Of a DNA stretch of 64,000 nucleotides, positions 5,325-63,505 are shown one piece after another. The stretch covers positions 4,216,001 to 4,280,000 of the forward strand of contig CP126196.1 of the NCBI GenBank assembly GCA_030272155.1. Direction: 5' to 3'. The notes below the pieces were generated by a model that did not search any database, was not told where the DNA came from, and saw only the letters and a program-made list of their open reading frames with translations. Position numbers and translations under genes: made by a program. How positions within the stretch are numbered: the first letter of the stretch is position 1; every line of letters starts with the position of its first letter. This stretch comes from Tetradesmus obliquus (taxonomy: Eukaryota > Chlorophyta > Chlorophyceae > Sphaeropleales > Scenedesmaceae).

Positions 5325-5700
5325 AGCCGCTCAGATGCTGATACTGCAGAGCTCACAAACACCCTTGCTGACATTCTTCACCAAAACCAGCAGGCGTGCA
5401 CCCTGTGCATATAGGTAGGTGCCTGAACGGACGACCCAAGCACACCCTGCAAGCCGCTCAGATGCGGATGCTACAGAGCACATGTACATACACGCACCAA
5501 CCTTGCCAACAGTATTCACAAAAACCAGCAGACGTGCACGCTGCATGTAGGGAGCTGCCTGCAGGGACGCCCCAAGCATGTCCTGCACGCCGCTCACACG
5601 CTGTTGCAAACACGCATGCTTGCAGGAAAGCCCTGCAAACCAACGTTCCTGCAAGCCGCTCCCATGCTGCCGCAAGCCGCTCAGATGCTGATGCTGTATG
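5325..5700 (-). repeat. Triplicated lipoxygenase C-terminus/stop segment
   Basis: The last codons of the lipoxygenase, Ser-Ile-Ser-Ile-stop at 5681-5692, are repeated downstream at about 5331-5345 (again SISI-stop) and about 5458-5472 (SIRI-stop). Each is preceded by related flanking sequence with the plus-strand core GCCGCTCAGATGCTGAT or GCCGCTCAGATGCGGAT. The copies are in the 3' flank and lack the rest of the last exon, so they look like by-products of local tandem duplication. Confidence 0.7.
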
Positions 5701-8700
5701 GCACGCCCTGCATGGTCACACCAGGGCCTGAAGAGGGGTACAGCAGCGTGTAGGCCATGCCCTGAGATGCCGGGTTGCGGCTGATGTTGGCAGGGTCAGC
5801 GTTGCGGCGCTCAATCTCTGGTGCGACCTCCTTGGTAATCTGTGCCACAAATGCTTCGAAGACTGCCTTGACGCGCTCGTCAGACTCCTGCAAAGGAAGG
5901 CAGAGGTAACATACGCGTGTTGCTGTTCAGCAATGGAGTGCGAGTGCTGTCCTATGCGCAGCGCTTTTTTGGTCTGCTTCACTTAGCTGCACAGTCACCC
6001 CTTGCCCCGCACTTCATCGTCATCAAGTGTCATGCGTTGCTGTGGCTTTCAGACAAGCAAAAGCTTACCAGAGGCAGCCAGTCCTGTGCATCTGTGGAGA
6101 GGTACTGCTCATCCTGCGCGTGAGCGCTCAGCAGCTTGACCGTGCTCATGACCTTGGTGGCAGTGGCGGGGGGTGAGATGTACGTGAACATCTCACTGCT
6201 GCTGACGCCCTTCGCAGCCAGCTTCTGCATTAGCAGCAGAGCAAGCAGCAGGCGGGAGTTTATGACGGCGCATCACAGCAGTACGAGAGATCACTTGCAG
6301 GGCAGTTCCACTTGGCACTGGCTTAGCCACATGTTATTATACATGTTATTTTGTGCTTTGAAATAGTCAACCAGCTGCTCACCTGCCACGCCTCGCTGCC
6401 CTGGGCTGGTGCAGGCCTCCTGCACAGTGGCGAGTGGCTAGGCATCCAGCCGCTGTAGTCATATTGACCAAAGTTGACCGCAGCGTGGTGTGCAGATGCC
6501 ACCCAGGCGATGGTCAACGCCGCCAGCACCAGGTTTGACCGGCTGTCCAGGTCAACCCAGCCGCTCGCGTTCGCATCTTTGTGTGCTTCCGTCTTCACCT
6601 CGTTCCACCTGCAGCGCAATGTTGCAGGGTCGAATCTCGGCGTCAGCAATGAATCTGGGCTATGCTGGGCTTGCAGGACCTTTCGCAATTGCCTGAAGTC
6701 AAGGATATGGCAGCTAGGCTTGCTTAAGTTTCCTTGGTATCGGTTCGTGCAGCGTCATCATCAGCGTGATACAGCGCTACACACGTGGACACCACTTGCA
6801 CAACCGTGATCCAACAGTTGGGGTCATTCCGTCTCACTCACCAGGCCTGCAGCCACTTGTCGTTCTGCACTGCATCATCTGTACTGTAGTACAGCTCCAC
6901 GTACGCTTCAAAGTACTTCTTCAGAGCTCCCCACAGCAGCAGCCCGTCCTCTGCATAGGGGTAGTCCTTGATGCGCAGCTCACCCTTGCTGTCAAGGAAG
7001 CCCCTGCAGGCAAGCAGTGGCGACAGCAGATTGCATGTGAGCTCTGTTATTGTCAAGACGCCATGTTAGGGTGCAACCTGTCAGCAACACAGCAGCAGCC
7101 CATGTTGTGCGCAGGGATAGTCAGCCACTCGCAGCGCACTCTTGTTATTTAGGAAGCCCCTGCAGGCAAACAAGATCAGCAGAAAAATCATTGTGGGGAT
7201 CACTCGCCAAGAAATCCTGACAAGCACAAAAGGTTGGCAGCACATCAAGATGACCATACACACGATGTCAACCCTATGTCAATGTACAAAATGCCAGCTT
7301 GGCAGCCTGCCACCTGTATCTGCTCCCATGCATCAGTTCTACACCAATGCAGCTCGAAAATGTTTTAATTGTTGTTATAACATGTTAGTAACACGTCGTA
7401 GCGCCGCACCTCTTTGCCAGGTCAGCGGTGAGCCCCTCCTCCTTGAAGCGCCAGGTCAGGCCGTACACAATGGAGCTCAGCTGCATGCTGAAGGAGCCCG
7501 GGGAGAAGTTGGTCTCAATCACACCTGCAGGACAGCACAGGCAAGGCAGCATCAGGGCGATATTAGAGACGGACGGTGTTAGAGATGCCTGCAGCAGTTT
7601 GGACAAGTTCTGGTGCATGCTGAAGGAGAGAAGTTGGTGTCAATTACATCTGCAAGCAGCTCAGCTCGGGCAGCCACTCCAGGTTATTGTCCTTCCTGCG
7701 CACCACGAGCAGCAATAGGAGCATATGTGCGCGTGCTCCTATTGCTGCTCCACGTGATGTATATGTACACGGGCCTGCAAACCGCTGCCGACATCAGGCT
7801 TTATCTGAAACAACACAGCACTGCATGCGCTGAAGTCAGCTGGGATAGGCACCCCAACTCAGCCAGCTGCAGACGCAACCTGCCAACAGCCAATACAACA
7901 CTGCGCACCTCCTGCGTTGATGAGGGAGCCGCGTGCTGCCGCGTTGATGGGCAGCGTGTAGCGGAAGTGCGGCATCAGCAGCCGGAACATCTGCAACCGA
8001 ACAAGGGCAAGCAGCATGGCAAGGACAATATGTCAGCTGGGTTGGACCACTGTCTCAGCAGCCGGAACGTTGCAGTGCATGTAACACCCAGCAACCCGAG
8101 GCAACAGGGGGAGCAGAGGATGGGGGGACAGCGGAAGTGCGGCATTAGCAGCCGGAACAGCTGCAGCCAAACAAGTGCAAACAGCGTGGCAAACATGAGC
8201 AGGGCAGCCAAACAAGAGCAGCCAATCATCTGCAGCCAAACAAGGGCAAACAGCATTGCAAGCATGAGCAGGGCAGGTGATGCCAGGGCAAGGTGTATCA
8301 GCAGCCAGGACATCTTGCAGCGCATGCATAAACAGGGCGACATGCAGCTTTCACATACCAGTGGCCAAGCACTGCTGCAATGCACGCACCGGGTGTGCCG
8401 CAAGCAGCTGGTGTCATTTGGTGGTAAGGCGCGACTCCACGCTCGCCGTCTCGCGTTGTTTAAATCGGTATAACGCTTACATGCTTGCACCCAGACAACC
8501 ATTCAGAAACAGTTGTAACATTTACATTGTAAACAACTCACCGGGTGTGCCGCTGGCAGCTGGCGGCGCGTGGCGATGAGGAATGGCTCCGTGCAGGCGT
8601 GTGTGCGCAGCCAGTGGCTGACCAGCTGGTGCCAGCCACTGTCCACAGACTGGAAGATGAGCTTGGCCACCTGCAGCAGCAGCAGCAGCAGCAGCAGCAG

Positions 8701-8783
8701 TGTCAGTGTTGACCAGCTGGTGCCAGCCGCTGTCCACAGACTGGAAGATGAGCTTGGCCACCTGCGGGGTTTTGGCCGCAGCA

Positions 8784-8826
<43 letters not shown>

Positions 8827-9494
8827 CAGCAGCAGTATTGTTACTTTTGTGCACGCACTGGATGCCAGGGATTTGCTGCTGCAAAGCTGTGATGACAGAT
8901 GATGTTTGATTGTCCAACGCGCTACACGCAACCATGGTTCCTGCCAGTCACTTGGCTAACGCGGCATCATGGTGTTACTCACCGGTAGCTGCCAAACAAA
9001 CATCCGTGTGCTAAGCTACTTTGCTGGTGATACAGTGCAGCATTGCAACTGGCTTGCAAGAGTGCAGACAGGCCTATACAGCTGATGTGCTGCAGGACAC
9101 ACAGAAGCAATGCTTGAGGGTGCGCAGCGTTGCAATTTTCTTCTATTTTCTCAATGCCAGACTGTCCATCTTTACAGAGAGTCCTGCTCCAGCAGCTGTT
9201 CAGCACACCTGCCACACTGCTGCCGGGTCGCTGGCTGTGTAGGTCACTGGGGCCGCCTTGCTGCTGTGTGCCAGCTCAATGATGACAGGCACCAGGTGGC
9301 CGTCAGAGCGCCTGCAGTAGCAGCAGCAGCAGCAGGTGTGTAAGCCACGGGGGCTGCCTTGCTGCTGTTGGCCAGCTCGATGATGACAGACACCAGGTGG
9401 CCATCAGAGCAGCAGCAGCAGCAGCGGCAGCAGCAGCCAGCTCAATGATGACAGCCGCCAGCTGGCCCACCACATCTTTCGAGCCGGTGCGCCT

Positions 9495-9525
<31 letters not shown>

Positions 9526-10210
9526 GTGCAGAACATTCTACACGCTGATCTCTGCCATCCAAAGGCGGGAACACTTGCATGACACCTATACAACAATGTT
9601 CACCGTAATGCTGTTACAAAGGAAATGCAGCTCAGGTGTTCAGCCAAATTTTCAGGCCACAGTGCATCACCAACCACATCGCCCTTGTTTGCATCCTCCA
9701 GTACTTCCAGCAGGCCATGCAAAGCCCAGTAGTCAACACAGGACTTTCTGATCATTTAACAGCCGGCCGCACCTGAACAGCACGCAGCGGCCTGCATGCA
9801 TCACCCGGTTTGAGCCCTTGTTTGCATCCTCCAGTACATCCAGCAGGCCATGCAAAGCCCAGTAGTCAACAATGAACAGCACGTGTAGCTACACGTGCAT
9901 GCTATAGCATGCACCCACGTTCATCATCTTGCACTTCACGTGTTGTCTTGCTCCAAAACCTGCGCATTTTGTTGCAACACACAACTGATGCCGAACAAGA
10001 TCCTCCTGCTGTTTGTACAGCCGGCCGCACCTGAACAGCACGCAGCGGCCTGCATGCATCACCCGGTTGGAGCCTGCATTGGCTGCCTCAAGAGTGTCCA
10101 GCAAGCCATACACCGCCCAGTAGTCAACAATGAACAGCCGAGGCTGCGCCCCGGCCTCCTCGCCTGCTGCTGCCCACCCCTCCAAGCTCTTGCCCCCCAG
10201 GTGGCGCTCT

Positions 10211-10264: not shown

Positions 10265-13200
10265 TGCCACAGCCGGTGAGCTGGACGCACACCAGCGTCA
10301 TCTTCTGCGGCTGTCATGCTGTGTTTCAAATGGGTGCCCGCACCCACTGGGTGGCACTTGCAAGGAAAGCACTTGGTGCCAGACAGCAGACGGTCAATGC
10401 AGCAAGCTGGCAGCAACAAATAACATCAACAGCAGACAGATTGATTGACATGAACAGCTACTGACCGCAGCAGCAGCAGTAGGTGTGCCTCACCCCTGAT
10501 GCGTTCCTCAGCCTCCCTGATGCCAGCACTGTCCTTCAGCAGCTGCGCCAGCCGCTCTGGGTCAAGCACCTGCAGCAGCAGCAGTAGCAGCAGCAGCAGC
10601 AGAAGCAGCAGCACCAGCAGCAGAGTGTCAATGGTTGTTCCAGGTTCATGTGGCTTCGGCTCAGCAGCTCTCCGTCTGGCCCCACACTTGAAACGCAAAG
10701 GACAGCATCTGTAGTGCTGCCAGAATCATGCAACATCTGCTGCGTTGGCGATCAAAGGCAGCCCATTCCTTGCCAGTGGGGCACAGTTGATGAGATGAAT
10801 CTCTAAAGCCTAGCACAACATCATGATCCCGAACCCTGTTACAACAAATGTCAATGGTGAGGCTGTTCTGCCCCGCCAGGTACATGCGGCCCATCTGCAT
10901 GTGCTCGCTCATACGGCTGGGCACTAAAAACCCTGGAACAATGGCCCAGCTAAACCCTCGCAGGTCGCACCTCGATGGTGAGGGGGTTCTGTCCTGACAG
11001 GTACATGCGGCCCATCTCCTCATCAGTGGGTTTCAAACATGAACCCAAACCCCAAACCCTAGCACACTATGTCTTGAACCCTGTTACAACATACCTCAAT
11101 GGTGAGGAGGGTCTGTCCCGCCAGGTACATGCGGCCCATCTCCTCATCAGTGGGTTTCAAAAATGAACACACACCCCAAACCCTAGCACACTATGTCTTG
11201 AACCCTGTTACAACATACCTCGATGGTGAAGGGGTTCTGCCCCGCCAGGTACATGCGGCCCATCTGCATGTGCTCGCTCATACGGCAGGGCACTTAAAAC
11301 CCTGGAACAATGGCCCAGTCAACCCTCGCAGGTGGTACCTCGATGGTGAGGGGGTTCTGTCCTGACAGGTACATGCGGCCCATCTCCTCATCAGTGGATT
11401 TCAAAAATGAACCCAAACCTTAAACCCTGGCACACAATGTCTTGAACCCTGTTACAACATACCTCAATGGTGAGGGGGTTCTGTCCCGCCAGGTACATGC
11501 GGCCCATCTCCTCAACAGTGGGTTCTAATATGCACCTAGACCTTAAACCCCAGCACACTGATCCTGAACCCTGCCACTACATGCCTCAATGGTGAGAGGC
11601 TTGTGTCCCGCCAGGTACATGCGGCCCATCTCCTCATCAATGGGTTCATATATCATACATTACATTACATTACATGCTCCACTCAACGAGGAGTGGGAAC
11701 CCCAGTCAGGAGCCAACGAGAGGCTCATAGGGGGAGGAAACATCGAAGAACAACTCATCATCATCCCAACCGTCAGAAGAGATCGCAGAAAGAAACTCAT
11801 CAGCATCATCAATAACTTGAGCAATAGCCTGACAGGACAGAAGGACCTCAGGATCAGTGTCCGGGTGACACCGCATCAGATAGCAGCAGTGCACAAAAGC
11901 AGCCACCATATCAACGCAAACCCACAACCCTAGCACACTATGTCTTGAACCCTGTTACATACCTCTATGGTGAGGGGATTCTGTCCTGCCAGGTACATGC
12001 GGCCCATCTCCTCATCAGTGTGCTCACAGTTGAACCTAAACCCTAGACCCTAACACACTATGTCTTGAACCCTGTTAGTGCATACCTCGATGGTGAGGGG
12101 GTTTTGTCCCGCCAGGTACATGCGGCCCATCTCCTCATCAGTGGGTTTCAAACATGAGCCCAAACCCCAAGCCCCAGCACACTATGTCTTGAACCCTGTT
12201 ACAACATACCTCAATGGTGAGGGGGTTCTGTCCCGCCAGGTACATGCGGCCCATCTCCTCATCAGTGGGTTCATATATCAACGCAAACCCCAAACCCTGG
12301 CACACTGCTTCTTAAACCCTGTTACAACGTACCTCAATGGTGAGGGGGTTCTGTCCTGCCAGGTACATGCGGCCCATCTCCTCATCAGTGGGTTCATACA
12401 TCAACGCAAAACCCCAAACCCTGGCACACTGCTCCTTAAACCCTGTTACAACGTACCTCAATGGTGAGGGGGTTCTGTCCTGCCAGGTACATGCGGCCCA
12501 TCTCCTCGTCAGTGGGCCAGGTGTCCAGCCGGTCCTGCAGCGACCTGGGTGCAGCAGGTGAAGGCACATTCGTTTATGAAAAGTTGTGCATGTAATTTGT
12601 ACCGAGTGTATCTATAGCCCTGCAACCTGGGTTACATGTTTGTACCATACAGAGGAACATTCAAAGCTCAGGCACATCTCCTCATCAGAGGGTGGGGTGT
12701 CCAGCCGGTCCTGCAGCGACCTGGCAGCAGCAGGCACATACACTTTGCCTTTTCTATGTTGTGTTGTCAATGACATATGCTGTTCTGTTGTGCGGCAATA
12801 CATGCGGTAAAGCAACAGCCATTCAGTGTATTCACTTCAGCGGTCACTTTCACAATCCAGAGCAGCAGTACAGCAGTACAACATCTGCAACTGCATGTTG
12901 TATGAGAAACTTCAACATCAGCGTAGCGGCTGCAACCTTGCCAGCATTGCCAGCATTGCATCAATCGGGACAACAGCCCCACCCTCCCACCCCTGCATCT
13001 TATCTGCAGACAGCTGATGTCATTGCTGTATTAGTGCAACACCATTATATATCCCAAACCTCTCTTGCCGGTGATGACAGTCAGCCACAGCCACTCGCTT
13101 AGGCATGTCATGCAAACCTGGTGACCGCAAAGACAGTCTTAACAATGTTGATAACACAAAAGTAACAATGCACTGACAGGGACTCACTTGGGCATGTCAT

Positions 13201-14540
13201 ATTTCAGCAGGTCCAGCACATCGCCGTTGCCTCCACATCTTAACAATGTTGATAACACAAAAGTAACAATGCACTGACAGGGACTCACTTGGGCATGTCA
13301 TATTTCAGCAGGTCCAGCACATCGCCGTTGCCTCCCCTGCCTGCTGCTGCCTGGCCGGTGCGTCCGCTCAGCCTGCCTGCCTCTGCCTCCTCCAGCTTGC
13401 GGCTGAACGCACTCCAGGGGCCTGTGGAAGCACACACAAAATCACAAGCGGAAGCTGTGACTTATAAACTGTGTGTGCTTTTCTGCGCTCTACGCGGCTC
13501 AGCCTGCCTTCTTCGGCCTCTTCCAGCTTGCGACTGAACGTACTCCAGGGCCTGTGGAAGCACACAAATGATAACAAGCGGAAACTGTTATGCCCGCTGT
13601 TCATGCAAACTATTGTTTGTACAGGGCACGTGCGTGTGCCGGTGCTTCCGTAAGTGTTTGGAGTGTGATTGTTGCAATGCTCATGGCGGTGATCTGTTAG
13701 TTGTGCAACAGTTATGTGATATTTATGTGAGAGGTATGTGATACATACCTTGCACGCCTCTGTTGTACAGGCTGAGCACCTCCTCCACGCTGCGTGTTAC
13801 TAACATGTTGGTAACACAATATAACATAACATAACATAACATAACATAACAACACATACCTTGCGCGCCCCTGTCGTACAGGGCCAGCATCTCCTCCACG
13901 CTGTCATGTGATGATTATGTTATATTCATGTTATAGCAATGTGACGATATTTGATACTTATGTGATACATACCTTGCGCGCCTCTGTCATACAGGGCCAG
14001 CACCTCCTCCACGCTGTCAAACTCATCCCCAGGGATCACTCGCAGCTTCTGCAGCAGCCAGCGCAGCGGCGGCGGGATCTTCTTGCCCACTGCGGCGTCA
14101 ATCGAGACCAGCACGCCAGGCAGCACGCCGGACACTGCGTTGCCGATGAAGCCGCGCGTCTTGTCTGTGTCAAAGTTGTCGTCCTTAAAGGATGGGAAGC
14201 AGCAGCAGCAACAGCAGCAGCAACGGCAGTGGTGGCTTCTACGCAATGTGTAGTTGGGGCAGCACGCCGGTCACAGCGTTGCTGATGAAGCCGTCTGCAG
14301 GTACATGGCACAACATCTACGCACCTGCGGGGTCCAGGGAGTTGCGGCCAGGCTCACAGGCGCAACCGAGTTCAGCCCCAGCACCAGCGCCCGCAGGCCC
14401 GGCGGCAGCACCTCCGCAATGCTTGCCAGAATGCTTCTGAAGACGTTGGGGTTGACCAGTGCCGCGTCAGCTGTGTTGGGCGGCAGCTCATAAGCAACGC
14501 CGTTGATGGTCACGTTGCCGCGGTTGGTGTCCAGGCGCCT

Positions 14541-29139: not shown

Positions 29140-29323
29140 CTCCAGGTGGAGCACCATCCTGTTTGCAGCCGCGGCCCTTCACGTCGATGACATCACATGA
29201 ACGGGCTCTCATCAAGAATGCCTCTGGCTGATGAGCAGGAGGCATCATTCATTTGAGCCCCTCAGCATAATGTCATTGACGTGTGGGGCCGCGGCTGCAA
29301 ACAGGATGGTGCTCCACATGGAG
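29140..29323. ncRNA. Long imperfect foldback, candidate small-RNA precursor or MITE
   Basis: Outer arms 29146-29185 and 29278-29317 are inverted copies matching at 38 of 40 positions, including an uninterrupted 32-bp stem beginning GTGGAGCACCATCCTGTTTG. The pairing continues inward without a length change for about 79 bp per arm with scattered mismatches and closes on a stem ATGCCTC/GAGGCAT around a 14-nt loop. CTCCA/TGGAG extends it outward. Colinear arms without gaps resemble a microRNA precursor or a small foldback transposon. No protein is encoded. Confidence 0.55.
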
Positions 29324-49200: not shown

Positions 49201-52200
49201 GTTGTGTCTGACTGGAGTTTGAGGCCAGGCAGCCACTGTGCCCCAGCACGCCCTACGACGCTCAGGTGAACCTGCTGCATGAATTTATGGTGCAGAGGGT
49301 TCTGCACTTTGCAAAGTTTTTTTGTGACTGAAGCTTGAGGCCAGCCCCCGACAGTGCCCCAGCACGCCCTACGATGCAAAGGTGGGTTGTCTGCACGTAT
49401 GCAGTCTGATGGGTCACAGGCATGTGAGAGGATGTCGGCAGTGTGCACTTTTTTCTGTGCGCATATCTTGTCTTGACGTATCTGCTGGGCGTCTTCCCCT
49501 GTCTGCTTCAGCACTCTCCTGTAGCTTCCGTTGTGGTTTTTTCATCAACACGCACTCGCCGCCGGTGCCCTGCTTGCTGCTGTTGTTGTTTGACACAGGT
49601 GCTTCGTGAGGCGTTTGAGGCGGCAGTGGTGAAGCGCATGATGAGCGACGTGCCCTTTGGTGAGTGCAGCGCTGCTTATGATCAAAGCTTTACTTGTGTA
49701 CAGCTGCTGTTGTGCTGCCGCGCGTAGCGTTTGTCTGATGAGCGATGTGCCCTTCGGTGAGGCTGCTGCACAGCTGCTGTCTGTGCGCAGTGCACTGTGT
49801 CCGGTGTTGGATTTTCATGCAGCTGCAACTGCCGCTACGCCTGCCTATTCCTGACCAAAGGCAGCGTTGCACACTCGCCTGCAGAGTTTAGGCTTCCTGC
49901 AAGCAGTGCTGCTCCCTGGCTGCCTGCTCATTTGGCAGCTTGCAATCGCTGTGCCACACAGTCAAGCAATAAAGCCATGTCTGCAAGTGAACGAAGCTCC
50001 ATTGCGTGTCTGCAGTTGCAGAACTGCCTAGCTAACCAAATCTTCCTTGTTACGGCCGCTGCCATGTATGTTTGACCAAATTCTGACCACTCATTTGACT
50101 GCACAGGCGTGCTGCTGTCTGGCGGCCTGGTTCCTCGCTGGTGGCCGCCATCGCCAACCGCGCCATCAAGTCAAGCGACGGCGTGTGTTGCTCTGCTGCC
50201 CAAGTTTGACCAAACATTGACCCATGTTTGACCGATGTTTGACTGCACAGGTGTGCTGCTGTCTGGCGGCCTGGACTCCTCGCTGGTGGCTGCCATCGCC
50301 AGCCGCGCCATCAAGTCGAGCGACAGCGTGTGGGGCAACCGGCTGCACTCCTTCTGCGTGGGCCTGCCTGGCAGCCCTGACCTGAAGGCGGCAAGGGAGG
50401 TGGCAGACTTCCTGGGAACAGACCACCATGAGTTCACCTTCACAGTGCAGGTGCGCGCACTATTGGGTTGCCTGTCTTGGATAGCGTGTGCTGCTGCGTT
50501 GGTGGGTACTGTTTGAGTTCTTTTGGGCCCTTATACAGCTCAGCTAGCCGGAGGTGTATTGGTTGGTGTCGAGCGACAGCGTGTGGGGCAACCGGCTGCA
50601 CTCGTTCTGCGTGGGCCTGCCTGGCAGCCCTGACCTGAAGGCGGCACGGGAGGTGGCAGATTTCCTGGGAACAGACCACCATGAGTTCACCTTCACTGTG
50701 CAGGTGCGCTTACGCATATGCTGTTGTGAGCTTGATGTGCAGCAAACTTTGACACCGTGATGTTGGCAGTGTCACCCACCACGCATGCACTCCCAGAGAG
50801 CCGTTCTTTTCTTCACTCCCCACCCCATCCCACACATCCTTTGCTGGTCTAACTGCTTGCTGGAGGGCATTGACGCCATCAGCGACGTCATCCAGCACAT
50901 CGAGACGTACGACGTGACAACCATTTGCGCACGCTCACACTCATTCCTCACTGCTTGTCGCACTTTCCTGTCACTTGCAGGAGGGCATTGACGCCATCAG
51001 TGACGTCATCCAGCACATCGAGACATACGATGTGACCACCATCCGCGCCAGCACGCCCATGTTCAACAGTCCAAGCTATGCACTCTGGCCCTGCTCACTG
51101 CTGTGTCAGGTTGCTTGCAGGAGGGCACCATGCCATCAGCAACGTCATCCAGCACACGCTTTCCTCCGCTGCTCCTTAGTATCCACTGCTGGTTGCCCAC
51201 TGCGCTGATTTACTGCTTGCAGGAGGGCATTGACGCCATCAGCGACGTCATCCAGCACATCGAGACGTATGATGTGACCACCATCCGCGCCAGCACGCCC
51301 ATGTTCCTGATGAGCCGCAAGATCAAGGCGCTGGGAGTGAAGATGGTGCTATCAGGCGAGGGCTCTGATGAGGTGTTCGGCGGCTACCTGTACTTCCACA
51401 AGGCGCCCAACAGGGTGAGCATGTGTTACGTAACATGTTATGTAACAACATGCTGTAATAGTGCTGCAAGCATGGTGTTTAGGTGGTGCTGTCCAGGGAG
51501 GGCATTGACAAGATGTTTGGAGGGTACCTCTACTTCCACAAGGCGCACAAGGCGTCAAACAGGGTGGGTTTGCGCCTGTTGTTACAAAGCGGTTAAATAG
51601 ATCTGCACGCTACTTGCATTCTAGCTTTGAGTGAAGGTGGTGCTCAGCGGAGGGGGCAATAATGAGGTCTTTGGGGGATACCTGTACTTCCATGAAGCAT
51701 CAAGCAGGGTGGCTGTTACCTGTGTCGAGCAACACTGCTGTAACAGGACCCGCATGGAACTCTGCTCTGAATCAACCCTTGTCTTTCTATCCCTTGCAGG
51801 AGGAGTTCTTCCAGGAGACTGTGCGCAAAGTGCAAGCGCTGCACTAGTTTGACTGCCTCTGTCTGCACCAACCAATGCTAACCCACTTCACGGTTTCCTC
51901 ACTCTGTTGGCCCCCACAGGAGGAGTTCTTCCAGGAGACGGTGCGCAAGGTGCAGGCGCTGTACCAATTTGACTGCCTGCGCGCCAACAAGTCCACCATG
52001 GCATGGGGCGTGGAGGCGCGCGTGCCCTTCTTGGACAGGCAGTTCCTCAACGTGGCCATGGCCATCGACCCCGCGGAGAAGATGATCAACAAGGCAGAGG
52101 GTGGGTTTGACATTGCTGCTGCCGCTGCAGCTGCAGCTGCCGGCACGTGCTGCTGTGTCCTGCTTGCCGCGCCTCTATCAAACTCATCATACTGTACCTA

Positions 52201-53754
52201 AGTGCCACAGGCCGCTTCGATAATTACACCTGTGCAAGGCCTGCCGGCACTGCATGCATCGAATCTCAATGCATCTGTGCTGCTGTTTCCACCTGAAACA
52301 CCTCGCCACACCTGCCATCAGGCCGCATGGAGAAGTACATCCTGCGCAAGGCCTTTGACACCCCGGAGAACCCCTTGCATACCATACCACAACCTACATC
52401 CTGCTGCTGCTGCTGTCACACCTCATACTGCTTGTCACACCTCTTTCCTGCATACCTCAGGCCGGATGGAGAAGTACATCCTGCGCAAGGCCTTCGGCGC
52501 CTGCTGCTGTGTCCCTCTTGCTGCGCTCTTTGTTGAAGATCTCGTCATAACACATCTCACTCTCGGTGAACCTCGCAGGCCGCATGGAGAAGTACATCCT
52601 GCGCAAGGCCTTTGACACACCTGAGAACCCCTACCTGCCCGCGCACGTGCTGTGGCGCCAGAAGGAGCAGTTCAGCGACGGCGTGGGATACAGCTGGATC
52701 GATGGGCTCAAGGACCACGCCAACAATGTGGTCAGCGACCAGATGCTGGCGGCTGCGCAGCACAGGTGAGCGAGCCGGTGTGATGTTCATGTAGCGAACT
52801 TGCTGCATCATCCTCTTGAAGTGTTGTGATCTGGACCACATGTACACGTGTAAACAACAAGTGTTGTGATCTGGACCACATGTACACGTGTAAACAACAA
52901 GTGTTGTGATCTGGACCACATGTACACGTGTAAACAACAAGTGTTGTGATCTGGACCACATGTACACGTGTAAACAACAAGTGTTGTGATCTGGACCACA
53001 TGTACACGTGTAAACAACAAGTGTTGTGATCTGGACCACATGTACACGTGTAAACAACAAGTGTTGTGATCTGGACCACATGTACACGTGTAAACAAGCA
53101 AGTTGTTGCCAGCGACCCAGGCAGCAGTACGAGTGGAGCCTGAAAGCCAGTGTTATATGCACCCAAGTGGCAATGTCTCATTCCCACATAATGTACTGGA
53201 CTCTGCACAGGTACCTGGACAACACGCCGCGCACCAAGGAGGCCTACTTCTACCGCTCCATCTTTGAGAGCCACTTCCCGCAGAAGGCAGCAGCAGACAC
53301 AGTGCCAGGTGCGGCAGCGCTGCTCTGTAGCTGCAGTCCGTTGTATATCCAGCCATGATGGTGTGTTGGCAGCAGTGCCTGATGTAACTCTGGAGTTTGA
53401 CATGTGTGCACTCAAGTTGCGTCAGGCCCAGCAGCAGCCCTTGCTGCACTGGTGCTGGCAGCCAGAATCTGCACATGTGTGGCTGCACCGCTTTTGTGTC
53501 GTAAGGCATATGCTGTTGCCTTCTTCGCAAGCATGAGCTACATGTATGTCAGCAGTGCATACTTTAGACATTCTCAAATGTCACGCTGACCAAGGGTCTG
53601 TGTTGCTGCTGCTGCTTCAGGCGGCCCCTCCATTGCATGCAGCACAGCCACTGCAGCGCTGTGGGACGCAGCCTGGGCAGGCAATGAGGACCCCTCGGGC
53701 CGCGCAGTGGCTGGCGTGCACGACAGCGCGTACGAGAAGCCCGCAGCAAACTAA
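46248..53754 (+). CDS. ASN1: Asparagine synthetase (glutamine-hydrolysing), 12 exons, 568 aa
   Basis: Makes asparagine from aspartate, ATP and glutamine. Exons: 46248-46351, 47461-47602, 47848-47913, 48555-48763, 49012-49144, 49599-49659, 50251-50450, 51223-51414, 51920-52100, 52579-52765, 53211-53308, 53621-53754; total 1707 nt. The protein begins MCGILACLL, giving the N-terminal nucleophile cysteine after Met removal. [26 protein letters not shown] and NGEIYN are the glutaminase domain. The synthetase domain has the PP-loop SGGLDSS (243-249) and [11 protein letters not shown]. The end ([19 protein letters not shown]) matches plant enzymes. Introns carry copies of the edges of exons 2, 4, 5, 6, 7, 8, 9 and 10. 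I chose the copies that keep phase and encode the conserved residues. Confidence 0.95.
47336..47403 (+). repeat. Decayed copy of asparagine synthetase exon 2 start
   Basis: CAG|GTCTGGCATGTTCCAGTGG occurs here and at the used exon (47461). The copy reads [20 protein letters not shown] and then loses similarity, against [20 protein letters not shown] in the exon. Confidence 0.8.
48295..48625 (+). repeat. Three copies of asparagine synthetase exon 4 start
   Basis: The acceptor and codons for [18 protein letters not shown] occur at 48555 (used), at about 48424, and in degraded form at about 48295. The 48424 copy ends after MLDCM and continues into intron-like sequence, giving a period near 130 bp. 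Confidence 0.8.
49200..49385 (+). repeat. Two copies of asparagine synthetase exon 5 end
   Basis: The exon end (CCCCAGCACGCCCTACGACG and GTGGGT-type donor at 49144) recurs at about 49212-49268 and 49328-49384. Both retain the donor but have frame changes. Confidence 0.8.
50105..50705 (+). repeat. Three copies of asparagine synthetase exon 7 parts
   Basis: The used exon is 50251-50450. A copy of its start, including the PP-loop region, lies at about 50107-50182 but lacks bases in the GGLDSS codons. A copy of its end, [19 protein letters not shown] through FTFTVQ with donor, lies at about 50566-50704 and stays open. Confidence 0.85.
50862..51712 (+). repeat. Multiple copies of both halves of asparagine synthetase exon 8
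   Basis: The start [20 protein letters not shown] occurs at about 50862, 50981, in degraded form at about 51119, and at 51223 (used). The end [11 protein letters not shown] with donor occurs at 51414 (used), about 51481-51565 and about 51631-51710. Exon-start copies lie upstream and exon-end copies downstream of the used exon. Confidence 0.85.
51801..51975 (+). repeat. Duplicated start of asparagine synthetase exon 9
   Basis: CAG|GAGGAGTTCTTCCAGGAG at 51920 (used) is duplicated at about 51801. The copy runs [15 protein letters not shown] and hits a stop at once. Confidence 0.8.
52321..52640 (+). repeat. Three copies of asparagine synthetase exon 10 start
   Basis: CAG|GCCGCATGGAGAAGTACATC occurs at about 52321, about 52461 and 52579 (used). 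The first reads [18 protein letters not shown], just as the used exon does, before entering intron sequence; the second diverges after RKAF. Confidence 0.85.
52821..53100 (+). repeat. Seven-copy 40-bp minisatellite in asparagine synthetase intron 10
   Basis: The unit starts GTGTTGTGATCTGGACCACA at 52821, 52861, 52901, 52941, 52981, 53021 and 53061. The first six are identical and the seventh differs only in its last bases. Each unit contains CACGTG (in TACACGTGTA) and lies 56 bp after the exon 10 donor. Confidence 0.98.
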
Positions 53755-53930
53755 AGTTGCTGCTCAAAGCATGCAGCGGCAGGAGCAGCAGCCGCAGCAG
53801 CACACTCGGTACGCGTGCGAGAAGCTCGCTGTACACTCCCAGCCAACTAAAGCTGCGGCTGATGTTTTACAGCAGCAACAGCTTGATGCGCGTACGAGAA
53901 GCCTGCAGCAAACTAAGCTGCTGCATGGAG
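53725..53930 (+). repeat. Copies of asparagine synthetase 3' coding end in its 3' flank
   Basis: The sequence GCGTACGAGAAGCCCGCAGC...AACTAA around the stop codon is repeated in altered form from about 53813 (GCGTGCGAGAAGCTCGC) and from about 53889 (GCGTACGAGAAGCCTGCAGC). As in the lipoxygenase gene, the stop-codon end has been tandemly copied into the 3' flank. Confidence 0.75.
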
Positions 53931-55384
53931 CATCAGCAGCAACAGCTGCTGATGCGCGGCAGGCATGGTGGTCTGCTGCCTGATTCGCTGCAACTGGATG
54001 TGCAAGGATGATGGTGGTTTACCTGCAGCAGCTGTAGCAGCTGCAGCATACTGGCCGCACCCTCGGCAGTTTTGAGGAGTTGCAGCTTGCAGGATCGGCA
54101 ACTGCAAGCTGCCTGAGTCAGTGTGTGCGGCAGGAGCACGGTGCAGCAGTAGTGGCGGCAACAGCAACAGTGGCTGAGACAGTATCAAGCTTGGGATACC
54201 AGCAGTTTTGGCTGCATCGGCAGCTTGCGGGATCCGGAGCTAAGGGGTACTTGAGCAGCAGCTGCAGCAGCAAGCACGGGCTGTTTATGATGTCACTGTG
54301 TTGTTGCAAACATCACAGCTGCAGCAGCACATGTGCTGGAAGTGTGAGAGGCGGACAGAGCCTGGGTCTTGGCAGTTGCCTGTTATGTGTGATATGCATG
54401 CGCCGGCCATTGCAGGCGCTGCTGTATGCTCGCACGTGACCAGGATTTGCAGGTGATGGCGTCTGCTACAGCATGAGGCCAGCTTGCATACTGCTGATTG
54501 TTTTTGTTTTATAGTCTGTTCGTACCAGGCTACATTGGGATTCAGCGCGTGGCAAGTTCAATCAATGATAGTGCTTGCTTAAGTGGTGGCTGGGGGCAAC
54601 CAAACCTTGACGACACGTGTTGCTTGCAGTGGGTGTTGCCCTACTTTATGTCACAGCGCAGCAGGGCAGAGAGGGCCTAGGCCACGATACTGCACATCTT
54701 GCCAAGATGTGCGGCACATCTTGCTGTTCTTGGTATGTGGGCTGGCAGAAGAGAGCGTTGTTGCCGAGAACCAGCGCCCTTTTGTGGTCTCCTGCATGCA
54801 CTGCTTACAATCTGAGTACGGTTTACAACAACTCAAGTGTTTGATTGCGTTCTGTCTTTTTGGCAGATGTTGGCCGCGGCCGGGCGCCTGCAGTGTGGCA
54901 GATACCATGCTGCACATATCAGGCAGCCGCTGTGTCCTGTGATATTCTGATTCAGCATGGCTGTGTTGGGAATCCCTGCGCTGAAAGGTGTTGCCAAGTT
55001 GGAACCACCAAATCGTTGGACTCACTGACTGGCAGGCTTGCAATGGCTGTCAGCAGGCGCCATACTGTGGCATCATCACACAATGCGATATGACAAAACC
55101 GGCATAGTTCGAAAACAGGGAGGCCCGCGCTGGCTTGACCGCTGGTGAATTCCCAGCCAGGTCACAAGTCATGACTAGGGTTACGTGATGCAATGCTGCT
55201 GCTGGAGCTCGTGAGCACTCAGTTTCCAAAGGGCCAACCAAACACCACCACAACTCAATCATCGGCGCATCTCATCGTGTCGGGCCTTCCATCTAAAGCC
55301 TTTCTTACCCGGAATCAGCTTGGTGTGGAGTGAGATCGCTGCTGTTCTGCAGTAGAAACGTGAGCAAACATCATAACGTCAACA
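53931..55384. other. Gap between asparagine synthetase and LHCB7-like gene, no gene seen
   Basis: No supported exons. CAG-rich stretches near the start belong to the asparagine synthetase 3' flank. The last few hundred bases should contain the promoter of the antenna gene. Confidence 0.5.
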
Positions 55385-58300
55385 ATGAGGCTGGCTGCTG
55401 CGAAGCCTGGCCAGTGCGCTCTGCAGCAGCGCAGGAGTGCTGGTCACCTGCTAGCCACACGGCCAGCTGCCCGCAGTCAACCTTGCAGGATCGTGAAGGT
55501 GTCATCAAACATTGAAGTGAGCTCATGTATAGTATATTACAGCAGCAGCATGCACGCTAGTTCGCATGTTGAGCACGGCTGTGCAACTGCTGCTGCAGCT
55601 GCAGCTGCAGCACCATGTTGTAGCAGCAGTTGGTGCTGTAGCAATTCGGGCCAATCATGTGTAGCATGCCTATCGTTGAAAGAAGTGTTTTTGATGTTGC
55701 AGGAGCGTGAAGCCAGCACCAGCAGCACCATGCAGCAAGCACAGGAGCCCCAGCAACAGCCGCAGCCTGACAGCCCTGCAGCACAGCAGGACTTCACCAC
55801 TGCTGCTGCCAAGTTTGTGGCTGAAGCCGTTGCATCCCCAATCTTCTATCTTGTAGCAGGTGTGGATTGCACTGACTTCACGCAACTCAATCTTTGCAGC
55901 AAGCAGCGCACTTGGCTTCTCTGCTTCTCTGATAGCTTACCTGGCAACTGTGCCATTGCTGCACCAGCCAGCAGCTGATAAACTGCAGCAGCCCACAATG
56001 ATGGTTCTGCAACTGCCTGTAACATATGGTTGTGTCCGCCGTTCCAAAAGTCACGCCACTCCCACTCTGCAAGAAGGGACGAGCTGCCAGCAGCACACGT
56101 GCCTCACACCTGCTGAGCTACAGAGATGCACGGGCTATCCACATATGTCTGCGCATTAGCCACAAATGCAGGCCCACTGGCAACCAAGGGTAGTGACAAG
56201 CCTTGCCTTTTTTTTGCTGTGCTACGATGTGATCACTACATGCATGTGTGTCTGCATGCAGGCTTGCTGACCATCAAGCTGGTCTCCTGCACAGGAGAGC
56301 AAAACAGAGAGCCAATGACGGTCAACGCTGTGTCACATTTCTCAGTCGTTGTGTGTATCTATCTGTTTGTGTGCAGGCCTGCTGACCATCAAACTGGTCT
56401 CCAGCACAGGAGAGGAGGCATCAGGCATCCTGCTGGCAGTGTGTCATAACTGGTGCAATAACTTGTTTGTGTGTGTGTTGTTGTCTGACCGCAGGCCTGC
56501 TGACCATCAAGCTGGTCTCCAGCACAGGCGAGCAGGCCTCAGGCATCCTGATAGCAGCAGCAGCGCCCGTCACGCTGCTGACGGCACTTTCTAAGAGCAG
56601 CCTGGGCAAGCAGGTGCAGCAGGGGCTTGAGGAGAAGCTGCCACAGCTGGAGGCAGAGGCGGCAGCACTGAAGCAGCAACACACAGGTGCGTGCAGCATG
56701 TTTGAAGCAGCAGCATGCAGCTGGTAAGAGTGAGCTGTGTATGGCGCTGTAAGCTATTTACCAGATGGCAGTCCGACATGTGGTGCGTGCGCGACACGTT
56801 TGACCAGGTGTGCGACATGTTTGACCAGTTTGACCTGAAATATGCTGCTGCTGCTGCTGCTCTTGCAGAGGCTCGCAGCCGCAGCCGCTGGTATGGCCCG
56901 CAGCGGCCACAGCTGCCAGCAGCGCTTGGCGGCTGCCAGGCGCACCTGAGTGGAGCAGTTGCTGGTGACTATGGGTTTGACCCGCTGGGCCTGTCGCAGC
57001 AGCCGGAGGCATTTGACCGGTACTTTGAAGCTGAGCTGCTGCATGCGCGGTGAGCACTGCTGTTGGCAAGTAGTACTTGCTGCATTGTACCACGCCCTGT
57101 GGGCCATGCCTGGTTTAGCTGTACTCCTTTCTTTGTGCTGTGCTGCATCCTGCGTGATCATGCTGCTGCTTTTTGCATGCTTTGTGCAGCTGGGCCATGC
57201 TGGCTGCTGTGGGCTGCTTGATCCCTGAGGCGCTGAGCCTGGGGGGAGTGGAGCTGGGTGAGCCTGTGTGGTGGAAGGTGGGCGCCGCCAAGCTGCAGGG
57301 AGGCGTGACACTCAACTACGCAGGCATCGAGGGCTTCAGGATAGCAGGTGGGTGGCTGGCGCGGGGGTTACACACAGCAGGTCACACCAGCAAGTTGCTG
57401 TGCATGCATGTGCCGACCTTCATGGGGCTTTTCAGTGGCACTGGGGTACTCTAGTACAGCTGCAGAGCAGCAGCCAAGTGTCGGGAAGCTTGCAGTGAAG
57501 ACCCACCAACACTTGAAGTGTCAAGAACCCCCAACCACTTGCTGGGATGTGCTGTGTCCGCCGCATGTAGCTGCTGCAAACATCAAGCCTTGCAGTCGGC
57601 GTTGAAGGCCCCTGTGCAGGCTCACTGACACATGTGTGACCATAAGAAGTTAGGTGGGCAATGGCTGCCAGTAGCTAGGTAAGCTAACTTGAATGCTGCC
57701 ACCTGCACTGCTGCTGCTGCTGCTGATACACTGTGCAGGCAAGCAGGGTATTGGCATCATCGCTGCCTGCCAGGCGGTGCTGATGGGAGGTCCGGAGTAT
57801 GCACGGTGAGCTGCTCGACATTCAATCACCTTGACAGATCAACAAAGACCCAGGCCCTGGAACCTGTACGTGCAGCTGCAGCTCAAATGGTCAAGGCAGG
57901 CTCAAGGTGGTCGTCAAAGGACATATTTATATGCCTCCTGCATTTTGAAGAACTGAGGGTTATTGTGCAGCAGCAGCGTTGCAGTTGCCAGCAGCGCTCA
58001 CTGCCGCCTCCTGCATGCAGAGAGCTGCTGCAGACGATTGTGTAGCTGGTAGCCATTTGTGTAGCTGGCAGCCATTTGTGTAGCTGGCAGCCATTTGTGT
58101 AGCTGGCAGCCATTTGAAAGCTGGAGCACACGCAACCGAGGGTGACTAAATGCTTTGTCATGCTCTTTGTAGCAACGTAGGCTTGTGTGGTGGCTGATGC
58201 ACCGTCAGCATGTTGCTGCTTCCAACGCCAGATGAGATGCTTGCTTCCTGCTGCTCAGTGCTGCTTGCTGCTTGTGCGACCTGCTTCTTCTGTTTGATTC

Positions 58301-59837: not shown

Positions 59838-62800
59838 ATGCTTACGGCAGCAGTGCCACAGCTGCTGCGGGCAGCTCAGGTGCTGCCTCAAGCCCTTTCA
59901 GCAATATCATTCATGCACACCACTTCGGAGGTGTCCCAGCCAGTGGCGAAGGTAGCAGAGGCGAAACCAGCTTTGTTCAAGGTATGCAGGCAATTCTCCT
60001 GCTGCCGAGCAGCTTATATAGCTTTTTTTCATGGTATATTGTCTTGATCAAAGTGTCGCACCCATTAGCATTGCCGTATGACGGTTGCTGATGGTGCAAC
60101 AGCAGCAGTGTCGGGACCACTAGTCTGGGAACCGCTACTGCTCCATGCACTGTTCATGACAGTACGGTCAACCACGTCCTGCACAGTTACAGCATGATGA
60201 ACAGATGTTTCGTGTGTTAAGTGCTAGCAGCAGCTGACGTTCCTGCATGACTTGAGCTGGCCCAGCGGTGTGCTAGCCACAGCAGTGAGTATGCTGTTGC
60301 AGGGACTTTCGTAGCAACTCAGCAGCATGTGCCGCGTCTGTTGCCAGACATGTTTTGCCAGGCATGTATAGCACCAGTGGTAGAGAAAGTTCAGACAGAT
60401 GGAAAGCAGCAGCAACGCATGGGCATCAGCAGCTAAGCAGCAGCAGCAGCAGCAGCAGCAGGGAGCTGGTGATGCACCAGCTGCAGCCTGTGCATGCACC
60501 ACCTAGTACACAACATGAACGAGCGCTGCGCACAGGTGGCCCGCCTTCTAGATAACCCCAAAGTACAATAGTCCACCTTCAGCTCTGAACCACGCTACAC
60601 TCGACAGCGGCCCTCTTTACGCAGCAGGTTGCAGCTGTGTGTCGTTTTGTACTTGGCCTGCAACTTGTGCTTCGTGTAATGCCTATCCCTCGCTTGTCCA
60701 GCATGCTGCTCTCACACTCTGCAGCAGTTCCAGGTTCACCCTTGGAGAGCTCACTTGCTTAAAAGTCGTTGTGTGTCACCCATGAGCACTGATATTCTCT
60801 TCGTGTCTGTGTTGCACGCGATGCATTTTCACACTGCTGCAGGAGTTCCAGGTGTACCGCTGGAACCCTGATGCGCCCGAGGCCCCAAAGTACGTGTCCT
60901 ACAAGGTGGACATCAACGCCTGTGGGCCCATGATGCTGGACGTGCTGCTCAAGATCAAAGACGAACAAGACCAGACGCTGGCACTGCGGCGCTCCTGCAG
61001 GTGCGCGTTATGAACGTGTTTTTGGGTTCAGACACGTTCACCAGAAAGACCGCAGTGGTCACCAGCATGTAGCAGGCAGCATGTGCCAGACGCTGGCGCT
61101 GAGGAGGTCTCGCAGTGCTTGTCTGTTTGTGTGCCTGTGCACTTGTCTGTTTGGCTGTGGGCCCATGATGCTGGACGTGCTGCTCAAGATCGCTTTGAAC
61201 AGGATAGTTGCAAAGACTGCAGCAGTCACCTGCATGCAGCAGGCAGCATGTGCCATTTGCTGGCGCTGCGACGCTGCTGCAGGGATGTGCGGGGGTTCCT
61301 GTTGCAACAGCTGTCTGTATGGCAGCAGCTGTTGACCTGTAGCAGCGCAGCGGCATGTGGCGTAGAGGGCATGTGTGATTCCTGGCCCATGAATTGTGAT
61401 GGCTATACACACAACCTGTTTGATCATGCATTACATGACATGTAAACCCACACGCGCGCAGGGAGGGCTTTTGCGGCTGTGTGCCATGAACATTGGCGGC
61501 CAGGACAACCTGGCCTGCCTCAGCAAGGTCAACAGGGACCCTGCAAAGCACTAACAACCAACATGCTCACTCTCCCATCAACATGTGACATGACTCGCAA
61601 CACATGTTATTGCAGGGAGGGCATCTGCGGCTCGTGTGCCATGAACATCGATGGCCAGAACAACCTGGCCTGCCTCAGCAAGGTCAACAGGGACCCCGCC
61701 AAGCCCAGCCGCGTGGCGCCGCTGCCGCACATGTTTGTGGTGAAGGACCTGGTTGTGGACATGAGCAACTTCTACAGCCAGTACAAGAGCATCAAGCCCT
61801 ACCTGCAGAAGAAGGGCAGGTGGGCTGCAGGTTTTAGGGTTCTGGGTCAAGTTGCTGGGGTTTAGTAGTGTAAGGGGTTTGGGTTACAGGGGTGTTTCTT
61901 TGTGGTGAAGGACCTGGTTGTGGACATGAGCAACTTCTACAGCCAGTACAAGCCCTACCTGCAGAAGAAGGGCAGGTAGGGCTGCAGGGTTCTGGGTTCT
62001 GCGTATCTTTGCCGGGGTTGAGTAGAGAGGGTTACACCTGCTTGCATCACTCTTTGCACTTTCAACGCCCTGCAACTTGTGGCATCTCCTTCTTGCATCA
62101 CTCTTTGCAATTCCAGCACCCTGCAGTTTCCTGCAGCTCTGGCCCCACTGCATTGAAAGAGGAGATTTCAGTGCAGGGACAGCCTCTTGCAACACTCTCT
62201 CAAACTGGTCGTCAGCCATGATTTCTGCCAACGTACTGCTGCTGCTGCAGTGTTGACCCCAATGCCCCCAAGAAGGAGATCTTCCAGTCCAAGGACAGCC
62301 GCGCCAAGCTGGACGGGCTGTACGAGTGCATCCTGTGCGCCTGCTGCTCCACAAGCTGCCCCAGCTACTGGTGGAACCAGGACAAGTACCTGGGCCCCGC
62401 GGTGCTGCTGCAGGCCTACAGGTGCGAGGGATTAGGGTTTCAGCTGGGGTTTTGACTGTGATGGTTTAGGTCTTGGTAGAGTGCAGCTGCCCCAGCTACT
62501 GGTGGAACCAGGACAAGTACCTGGGCCCCGCGGTGCTGCTGCAGGCCTACAGGTGCGAGGGTTTAGGGTTTCAGCTGCGGTGTAGGGTTCGAGGGTTTGG
62601 CTGTGGTGTTTAGAGTGCGGCTGCCCCAGCTACTGGTGCAACCAGGACAAGTACCTTTGGCCCTGCAGTGCTGCTGCAGGCCTACAGGTGCGCTGCTTTC
62701 TATTTCAACTGTTTGTTTGGTGCCTGGTACAACCACCACATGCACTAAGACAAGTACCTGGGGCCCGTAGTGCTGCTGCCAGGCCCACAGGTGTGTCTCT

Positions 62801-63259
62801 TGCGGCATCTATGTCTCCTTCACAATTGCTATTGTAGAGTTTCGACTGTACCAGCTTCCAGACACTGCCGTCTCAGATAGGTGTTCGGCACTTAGTATTG
62901 TCCGTATGCATGCATGGCTTCTTCTTCTGCTGATGCTGCTGATGTTGATGCTGCTGCTGCTGCTGCTGCTGCTGCTGGCCAGGTGGGTGATTGACAGCCG
63001 TGACGACTTCACTGCTGAGCGGCTGGCGCACCTGGACGACGCCTACAAGCTGTACCGCTGCAAGGTGAGCGAGGATGTTGTCAACATTCACGCAGTGTTC
63101 ACAACATGTTGGACAATATGTACAGACCAATGAAAGACAGAGCCATACTTGCATGTCTTGCATGATGATCAACTTTGTTGCTGATGAGATCTCGTGATGT
63201 GCTTGCTGTCATCCTTGGCTGTGCTATGTTTCGCTGATGCTGGATTGCTTCTGACCCTG

Positions 63260-63294
<35 letters not shown>

Positions 63295-63408
63295 CCACCA
63301 TCACCACAGACCATCATGAACTGCAGCCAGACCTGCCCCAAGGGCCTCAACCCGGGCAAGGCCATCGCAAAGATCAAGCAGAGCCTGCACAAGGGCTCCC
63401 CGGTGTAA
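59838..63408 (+). CDS. SDHB: Succinate dehydrogenase iron-sulfur subunit (complex II), 6 exons, 285 aa
   Basis: Carries electrons from the FAD subunit to ubiquinone in mitochondrial complex II. Exons: 59838-59981, 60843-61000, 61616-61819, 62251-62421, 62983-63064, 63310-63408; total 858 nt. The first ~45 residues ([20 protein letters not shown]...) form an amphipathic mitochondrial presequence. All cluster cysteines are present: C100, C105, C108, C120 ([10 protein letters not shown]...LAC) for the 2Fe-2S cluster, and C195, C198, C201, C205 ([12 protein letters not shown]) with C252, C258, C262 (NCSQTCPKG) for the 4Fe-4S and 3Fe-4S clusters. [19 protein letters not shown] is typical of SDHB. 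Some green algae split SDHB into two genes; here one gene encodes the whole subunit. Introns contain copies of the edges of exons 2, 3 and 4, and a copy of the last exon follows the stop. Confidence 0.96.
61081..61555 (+). repeat. Fragments of SDHB exons 2 and 3 in intron 2
   Basis: Copies of exon 2 sequence (CCAGACGCTGGCGCTGAGG at about 61086, and the [12 protein letters not shown] codons at about 61157-61195) are followed by a copy of the exon 3 start at about 61467-61553. That copy preserves GGAGGG...GACAACCTGGCCTGCCTC but has a frameshift at the Cys codons, so it cannot replace exon 3. Confidence 0.8.
61897..61978 (+). repeat. Copy of SDHB exon 3 end
   Basis: TTTGTGGTGAAGGACCTGGT through AAGGGCAG and donor is repeated downstream of exon 3. 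The copy lacks nine bases in frame (the codons for one SIK of YKSIK), so it would encode an intact shorter segment if spliced. Confidence 0.85.
62480..62795 (+). repeat. Three further copies of SDHB exon 4 end
   Basis: The codons for [22 protein letters not shown] and donor (used copy ends 62421) recur at about 62486-62556 (unchanged), about 62620-62691 (several changes) and about 62749-62793 (short, degraded). Similarity falls with distance from the exon. Intron sequence between them contains GGGTTTAGGGTTTCAG-type motifs. Confidence 0.88.
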
Positions 63409-63429
63409 ACTGGCAGCTTGCCATTGCAG

Positions 63430-63505
63430 CAGCAGCAGCAGCAGAGTTTTGGCAAGGCCATTGCCAGGCGCAAGCAGAGCTTGCACAAGTGCTCCCCGGT
63501 GTAAA
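63430..63505 (+). repeat. Degraded copy of SDHB last exon after the stop
   Basis: GGCAAGGCCATTGCCAGGCGCAAGCAGAGC...CCCGGTGTAAA repeats the final ~17 codons and stop with several substitutions, directly after a short CAG tract. Confidence 0.8.

Follow-up and report, generated by a model that had tools for sequence, protein, structure and literature searches.

Tandem copies of exon edges at coding borders in genes of the green alga Tetradesmus obliquus

Genes and gene models in the window

We analyzed a stretch of 64,000 nucleotides from the genome of Tetradesmus obliquus, hereafter the window (bases 4,216,001 to 4,280,000 of contig CP126196.1; genome of 104.7 Mb in 17 contigs), in which introns of several genes carry tandem copies of the adjoining exon edges. 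Five genes were modeled by hand with GT-AG introns: EF-G (16 exons, complete), LOX (last ten exons), ASNS (most of the gene, 11 exons), an LHCB7-like gene (6 exons), and SDHB (5 exons). All 43 introns of these models are GT-AG, and the frames are open after a one-base shift of the end of ASNS exon 7. The expected Pfam domains were found in the LOX, ASNS, LHCB7-like, and SDHB models (lipoxygenase, asparagine synthase, chlorophyll a-b binding, and iron-sulphur, respectively), and the EF-G model matches a deposited T. obliquus protein along its whole length (99%), being equal to deposited protein P0001 save for 7 additional residues in the latter. A UBC9 gene is predicted at 40739-42292 with PF00179 (ubiquitin-conjugating enzyme), and MORN-like exons inside the region from 27.0 to 47.3 kb were named by eye.

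Tandem repeats were sought with self-BLAST of the window and Tandem Repeats Finder. The exon-edge probe was a 60-nt piece from the start or end of an exon, matched to introns. Of 55 probe matches, 46 copies that scored at least 21 and came as close as 3-4 nt to the border were used for divergence work. For comparison with the rest of the genome, we used a sample of ten 20-kb stretches, one from each of ten contigs; sample counts drop one satellite-like stretch (S020) and refer to the remaining nine. Exons beyond the hand models come from a simple gene finder trained on the five window genes, which finds 92/96 hand boundaries there but predicts 16 additional exons in the same regions and tends to over-merge genes.

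Copies of exon edges on the intron side

In self-BLAST, the window shows numerous direct repeats lying next to each other, shifted by 90-170 bp or a multiple of this. With the 60-nt probe, 28 of the 86 tested intron ends in the five hand-modeled genes carry a copy of the adjoining exon edge, comprising exon-start copies in the upstream intron (16/43) and exon-end copies in the downstream intron (12/43). Every one of the 28 alignments extends to within 3-4 nt of the splice junction, and the controls are nearly empty, with 0/430 matches in introns of other genes and 1/83 at the wrong intron end. These counts confirm the exon-edge duplication pattern as real, and they bear out the initial annotation, which had claimed such copies in all five genes, with exon starts copied before the used exon and exon ends after it. 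The single wrong-side match also sets the pattern apart from tandem exon duplication (mutually exclusive exons), in which the whole exon is copied with both of its splice sites. UBC9 and the MORN gene had been named as genes lacking the pattern, and the region from 27.0 to 47.3 kb indeed holds a single near tandem match, with a shift of 41 bp (40661-40734).

The spacing of the copies is narrow. The nearest copies lie at a mean shift of 128.4 bp (standard deviation, 18.5; n = 27, all below 175 bp), and farther copies lie at roughly two or three times the nearest-copy spacing. Most loci hold 2-4 units, and arrays reach 3-12 units (Table 1). The same spacing peak appears in sampled stretches elsewhere in the genome, and the 98 matches of 60-200 bp shift from window and sample together average 125 bp (standard deviation, 26). 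Exon-touching clusters were found in 8 of the 10 sampled stretches, in agreement with the claim that the pattern is widespread; one stretch (S018) was without any cluster. False tandem copies from misassembly or merged haplotypes are a highly improbable source of these repeats: point changes and indels separate the copies to graded degrees, the side rule is nearly always kept, a common spacing recurs on different contigs, and the genome is assembled in 17 contigs with no N in the pieces analyzed.

The freshest two-copy unit, in the upstream part of LOX (13133-13335), duplicates a predicted exon end on its donor side in full together with the head of the intron, the alignment length being equal to the shift. 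Among the 46 neighboring pairs, intron spacers are homologous in 17 at z > 3 and in 25 at z > 2. This complete unit and the homologous spacers identify the underlying event as tandem duplication spanning the border. The proposal that the copies include intron sequence holds for the complete unit and for the pairs with homologous spacers; elsewhere the intron part is often too diverged to align. Copying limited to the exon, suggested by exon-only similarity, was set aside as a candidate in view of the longer intron-flank alignments and the complete LOX unit.

Copies also straddle the stop codon in three of the five genes (LOX, ASNS, and SDHB); of the five tested, EF-G and LHCB7-like have none, and the sole start codon tested, that of EF-G, has no copy. 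Splicing is therefore not needed, and the common factor is a border between coding and noncoding sequence with a surviving intact coding copy. The suggestion that copying spans exon-intron junctions accordingly stands for splice borders but is too narrow, and the pattern as a splice feature does not run to position 63505, which is the end of the SDHB stop-codon copy.

Introner-like or other mobile elements with splice sites were considered, as the copies bring splice sites and dispersed elements occur in these introns. Nevertheless, a genome search with EF-G and ASNS gave no match on a copied exon edge among the best 40 candidates each, and similar intron-carrying copies at unlinked sites were likewise not seen within that scope, which leaves this explanation extremely improbable. 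Two other sources were rejected. Copying from splicing intermediates or mRNA templates disagrees with the sequence next to the copies, which is unlike the neighboring exon in the few cases inspected by eye, and a paralogue or second locus as the source disagrees with EF-G and ASNS, which look single copy at the DNA level.

Table 1. Positions in the window of copied exon edges and stop-codon regions in the five genes
Feature	Position	Strand	Basis
LOX stop codon and copies of coding-sequence end with 3' flank	5319..5740	-	self-BLAST, stop-codon test
LOX exon 7 start copy	6932..7169	-	exon-edge probe
LOX exon 5 start copies	7960..8276	-	exon-edge probe
LOX exon 4 start copy	8612..8765	-	exon-edge probe
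LOX exon 3 start copy, upstream intron	9236..9436	-	exon-edge probe
LOX exon 2 end copies, downstream intron	9681..10138	-	exon-edge probe
LOX array, about 12 units of 124 bp with predicted exon end	10969..12516	-	Tandem Repeats Finder; predicted exon 12457-12534
LOX, freshest two-copy unit (upstream part; unit of about 102 bp, 99% identical)	13133..13335	-	self-BLAST, Tandem Repeats Finder; predicted exon 13289-13421
EF-G exon 15 start copy	20999..21218	-	exon-edge probe
EF-G exon 13 end copy	21769..21970	-	exon-edge probe
EF-G exon 13 start, used copy and two upstream copies	22075..22391	-	exon-edge probe
EF-G exon 10 start copy	23419..23594	-	exon-edge probe
EF-G exon 9 end, used and three copies, 114-bp unit	23735..24140	-	exon-edge probe, Tandem Repeats Finder
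EF-G exon 8 end copies	24359..24656	-	exon-edge probe
EF-G exon 7 end copy, shift 270	24904..25263	-	exon-edge probe
EF-G exon 5 start copy	26278..26492	-	exon-edge probe
EF-G exon 4 end, used and two copies	26602..26997	-	exon-edge probe
ASNS first modeled exon, start copy	47332..47524	+	exon-edge probe
ASNS exon 3 start copies	48302..48616	+	exon-edge probe
ASNS exon 4 end copies	49091..49395	+	exon-edge probe
ASNS exon 6 start copy and end copy	50094..50709	+	exon-edge probe
ASNS exon 7 start, three upstream copies	50854..51306	+	exon-edge probe
ASNS exon 7 end copies	51335..51692	+	exon-edge probe
ASNS exon 8 start copy	51797..51978	+	exon-edge probe
ASNS exon 9 start copies	52318..52632	+	exon-edge probe
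ASNS stop-codon region and copies in 3' flank	53726..53962	+	stop-codon test
LHCB7-like first modeled exon, two start copies	56245..56557	+	exon-edge probe
SDHB first modeled exon, weak end copies (under count cutoff) and internal 37-bp match	60920..61268	+	exon-edge probe
SDHB exon 2 start copy	61458..61704	+	exon-edge probe
SDHB exon 2 end copy	61734..62025	+	exon-edge probe
SDHB exon 3 end, used and three copies	62354..62793	+	exon-edge probe
SDHB stop codon and copy of coding-sequence end with 3' flank, shift 96	63355..63505	+	self-BLAST, stop-codon test

A match to a copy in the deposited EF-G protein

The 7 additional residues of P0001 coincide with a copy. The protein has the motif VPKEYIP twice, while the three other proteins compared (P0002, P0003, and P0005) have it once, and the additional 21 nt correspond to the beginning of an exon 13 copy with GT after it (22238-22386, minus strand). 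Such 21-nt segments number three: the used exon 13 has one, and copies have the other two. The repeat in P0001 may be either an annotation error caused by the copy or a true micro-exon.

Decay of the copies

Copies diverge from the used exons in a graded manner. In the 17 pairs with well-aligned spacers, substitution rates per site are 0.129 in the spacer, 0.044 at codon positions 1 and 2, and 0.091 at position 3, and gaps are found at 43/837 spacer sites versus 11/1,128 exon sites. If a copy decays next to an exon under constraint, positions 1 and 2 are expected to change at about half the spacer rate; the ratio seen is a third. Nonsynonymous changes make up 144 of the 290 differences across the 46 used/copy pairs. 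Some exon parts remain 97-100% identical although the adjoining intron no longer aligns, which suggests conversion or exchange within arrays.

Retained similarity of this kind could also be read as function, with the copies serving as decoy or alternative splice sites under selection. Exon parts are more alike than intron parts even among unused copies, differences in young copies favor third codon positions, and splice dinucleotides are retained in 38/44 copies (AG in 21/24 acceptor copies and GT in 17/20 donor copies), a level that we estimate to be about what neutral decay would leave at these divergences. Copy spacings divisible by three number 22/46, somewhat above the expected third, but over half of the spacings are no multiple of three. 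Moreover, unused copies carry one-base gaps, at least one holds an in-frame stop (the ASNS exon 8 copy, by eye), and the stop-codon copies are without a splice role. At junctions with two or more copies, singletons in copies fall on the three codon positions as 36/24/44, a mild bias that gives just as mild backing to the coding constraint suggested by the young pairs, and such constraint was set aside as a candidate. Taken together, a functional role for the copies appears improbable.

Concentration at coding borders

Duplications are commoner at borders than random placement would give, as had been predicted. In the sample, 27/44 clusters span a predicted splice junction versus 11.3 expected from circular shifts (0/2,000 as high), and 0/44 have a copy wholly inside an exon versus 3.7 expected; in the window, 24/38 clusters span a predicted junction versus 14.8 expected (2/2,000 as high). 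Window and sample together give 67/82 clusters that touch a predicted exon. The initial annotation had proposed a process that itself copies border segments, and we compared this concentration with forward simulations in which duplications were blind to borders and forbidden solely where they fell inside an exon or covered a whole exon or intron.

With neutral divergence, 69% or 67% of detectable simulated clusters span a border (two runs), and with 2-, 4-, or 8-fold faster intron divergence, 82, 90, or 92% touch one; these percentages are rough, as duplication lengths were uniform from 60 to 200 bp and the substitution and indel ratios were preset. Matches that end 10 nt or less from the junction make up 15/27 in the window and 8/25 in the sample, and 21-23% of simulated matches at equal rates and 52% at a two-fold rate difference. 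The uniform neutral model thus fits much of the data, not all of it: faster intron divergence must be added, since 27/28 clusters in the hand-annotated genes touch an exon against the simulated 67-69%, and the result still falls somewhat short. Blind duplication combined with selection and a faster loss of intron similarity accounts for most, not all, of the concentration. The initial reading is partly supported.

We consider it probable that T. obliquus undergoes recurrent short tandem duplications, with a unit of about 100-150 bp, that are filtered by selection. A duplication inside an exon would break the protein and be lost, whereas one across an acceptor, donor, or stop codon would keep one coding copy intact and joined to the remainder of the exon. 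If this intact copy is the one used (the last acceptor, the first donor, or the first stop), the event would be nearly neutral, and the spare copy would stay, decaying, in the intron or 3' flank. Intron parts would lose similarity fastest, so that the exon edge and its splice site would stay visible the longest. Unequal exchange or slippage may make arrays grow, and a few exon parts are probably held near identical by some gene conversion. As molecular origin, staggered breaks that were filled in and then rejoined by end-joining are most likely; small tandem duplications arising at such breaks were reportedly described by Vaughn and Bennetzen in 2014 and by Schiml in 2016. Such duplications would lengthen introns and provide ready-made splice sites.

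Several observations weigh against selection-filtered blind duplication as a full account. Even 8-fold faster introns reach just 92% border-touching clusters, compared with the 27/28 seen, the sole cluster off exons being a 40-bp minisatellite. Among clusters of at least 95% identity, 6/7 end 10 nt or less from the junction, compared with 3/64 and 5/42 to 14/27 in simulations. Young copies differ by codon position as 20/12/70 (32 pairs), a third-position excess above simple decay. Window clusters with a copy wholly inside a predicted exon number 3 versus 2.9 expected, which is no exon avoidance; in two of the three, the exon is hand modeled and the partner copy lies in its intron. Lastly, the units are centered on the junction. 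In a test on 27 window rows, which took only copies less than 175 bp from the used exon and no stop-codon copies, the mean exon share is 0.48, and its mean absolute deviation from 0.5 is 0.094 versus 0.189 for uniform placement (0/20,000 draws as low; P < 0.0001). Donors alone are also centered (P = 0.0001), and centering is weaker in the sample (mean exon share, 0.41; P = 0.04), where the test takes in one outlier, a 153-bp repeat within a predicted exon.

Centered units, the near absence of intron-only units (1/28) in the hand-annotated genes, and the narrow spacing would be expected if duplication were aimed at borders, for instance through breaks or nicks at fixed places about 60 bp on either side (a nucleosome edge or a transcription-linked lesion) that yield junction-centered units of about 125 bp. 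However, 15/82 clusters touch no predicted exon. Four two-copy pairs are near complete, and their values of alignment length minus shift (-9, -5, -1, and 0) are too few for breakpoints to be read or microhomology to be judged. Centering may come from such a border-targeted process, but it may also come from selection against long pseudo-exons, from a requirement that the branch point and pyrimidine tract stay intact, or from the limits of detection. On balance, we regard border-aimed duplication as a doubtful alternative.

Relation to described duplication systems

Minisatellite arrays expand and homogenize by turnover, and the T. obliquus arrays of 3-12 units resemble them, but most loci hold only 2-4 units anchored on a coding border. 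The closest published case is the potato RdRp gene, in which, according to PMC4974935, a tandem duplication spanning an intron-exon boundary gave rise to a new intron. Likeness extends to the head-to-tail duplication with intron tail, branch site, pyrimidine tract, AG, and exon start, as given in that source, and to P0001, where the 7 residues fit 21 nt of a copy as a micro-exon in an equal layout. The potato case, however, is one event backed by RNA reads and phylogeny, whereas in T. obliquus about a third of the tested intron ends are affected, nearly all without a sign of a new intron, and donors and stop codons are included. In Rogers-type intron gain, an exonic AGGT segment is duplicated (as given in PMC4974935), and near-intron pairs are reported in Drosophila (PMC2891723); according to these sources, tandem duplication likewise provides splice sites there, but the unit is exonic instead of straddling a border.

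With respect to mechanism, small tandem duplications from staggered breaks are attributed to nonhomologous end joining (NHEJ) with CST-Pol alpha fill-in (PMC8355091, PMC5730883). As described there, they are short and head to tail, repeated cutting leads to second and third tandem duplications, and the NHEJ type has little microhomology; they differ in following induced breaks in mouse and human cells. Searches of open-literature titles and abstracts gave no report of genome-wide border duplication in this algal group, subscription papers lying outside this coverage. The claim of a mode without described precedent therefore needs qualification: single border-duplication events have already been published, but the scale and the attachment to coding borders appear new, and the centering of units and the rarity of intron-only units keep the bolder reading alive.

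Other repeats in the window and sample

Repeats of other kinds occur beside the copies. In EF-G, a dispersed element of about 122 bp (25045-25166) lies between exon 7 and its copy; it has many matches on other contigs and is possibly a miniature inverted-repeat transposable element (MITE)-like repeat. The ASNS minisatellite (52819-53108) is intronic and comprises about seven 40-bp units that are 99% identical. A dispersed repeat of about 475-525 bp is present in three copies of 97-100% identity (17503-18027, 19599-20072, and 43059-43583) and is perhaps a transposable element, and an imperfect palindrome (29140-29323), 81% self-complementary over about 184 bp, lies upstream of EF-G. Runs of (GCA)n/(CTG)n are frequent in window introns, sometimes directly upstream of acceptors. 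In the sample, a satellite-like region (C10:3200001-3214000) has shifts near 310 and 390 bp at 94-98% identity, and an array of about 2 kb with 153-bp units (C5:3007905 onward) is open as long predicted exons and perhaps encodes a repetitive protein.

Intron length and implications

Recognizable copies make up about a third of intron length in the five genes, and the mean intron length falls from 388 to 258 bp once copies are taken out, a figure obtained by subtracting the distance from the junction to the farthest copy (with a floor of 80 bp), which also removes intervening items such as the element in EF-G intron 7. Mean intron length is given as 462 bp in T. obliquus, 230 bp in Raphidocelis, 302 bp in Monoraphidium, 284 bp in Chromochloris, and 270 bp in C. 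reinhardtii (PMC5966456). Our copy-free mean falls within the range of the four other green algae (230-302 bp). For Chlamydomonas and its multicellular relatives, the driver of long introns is described as likely ancient and the advantage of length as unknown (PMC8226300).

For annotation, the deposited EF-G model, which holds a 7-residue repeat matching a copy, serves as a warning. If the pattern is true genome-wide, these duplications would be a concrete and testable cause of intron growth, and T. obliquus would offer a natural laboratory for intron gain by duplication. More boldly, and in our view unlikely, T. obliquus may possess a mutation process that prefers duplications of about 125 bp centered on coding/noncoding borders, which would have lengthened introns by about half in the genes examined and would keep supplying new acceptors, donors, and stop codons, as a standing engine by which introns are gained and exon borders change.

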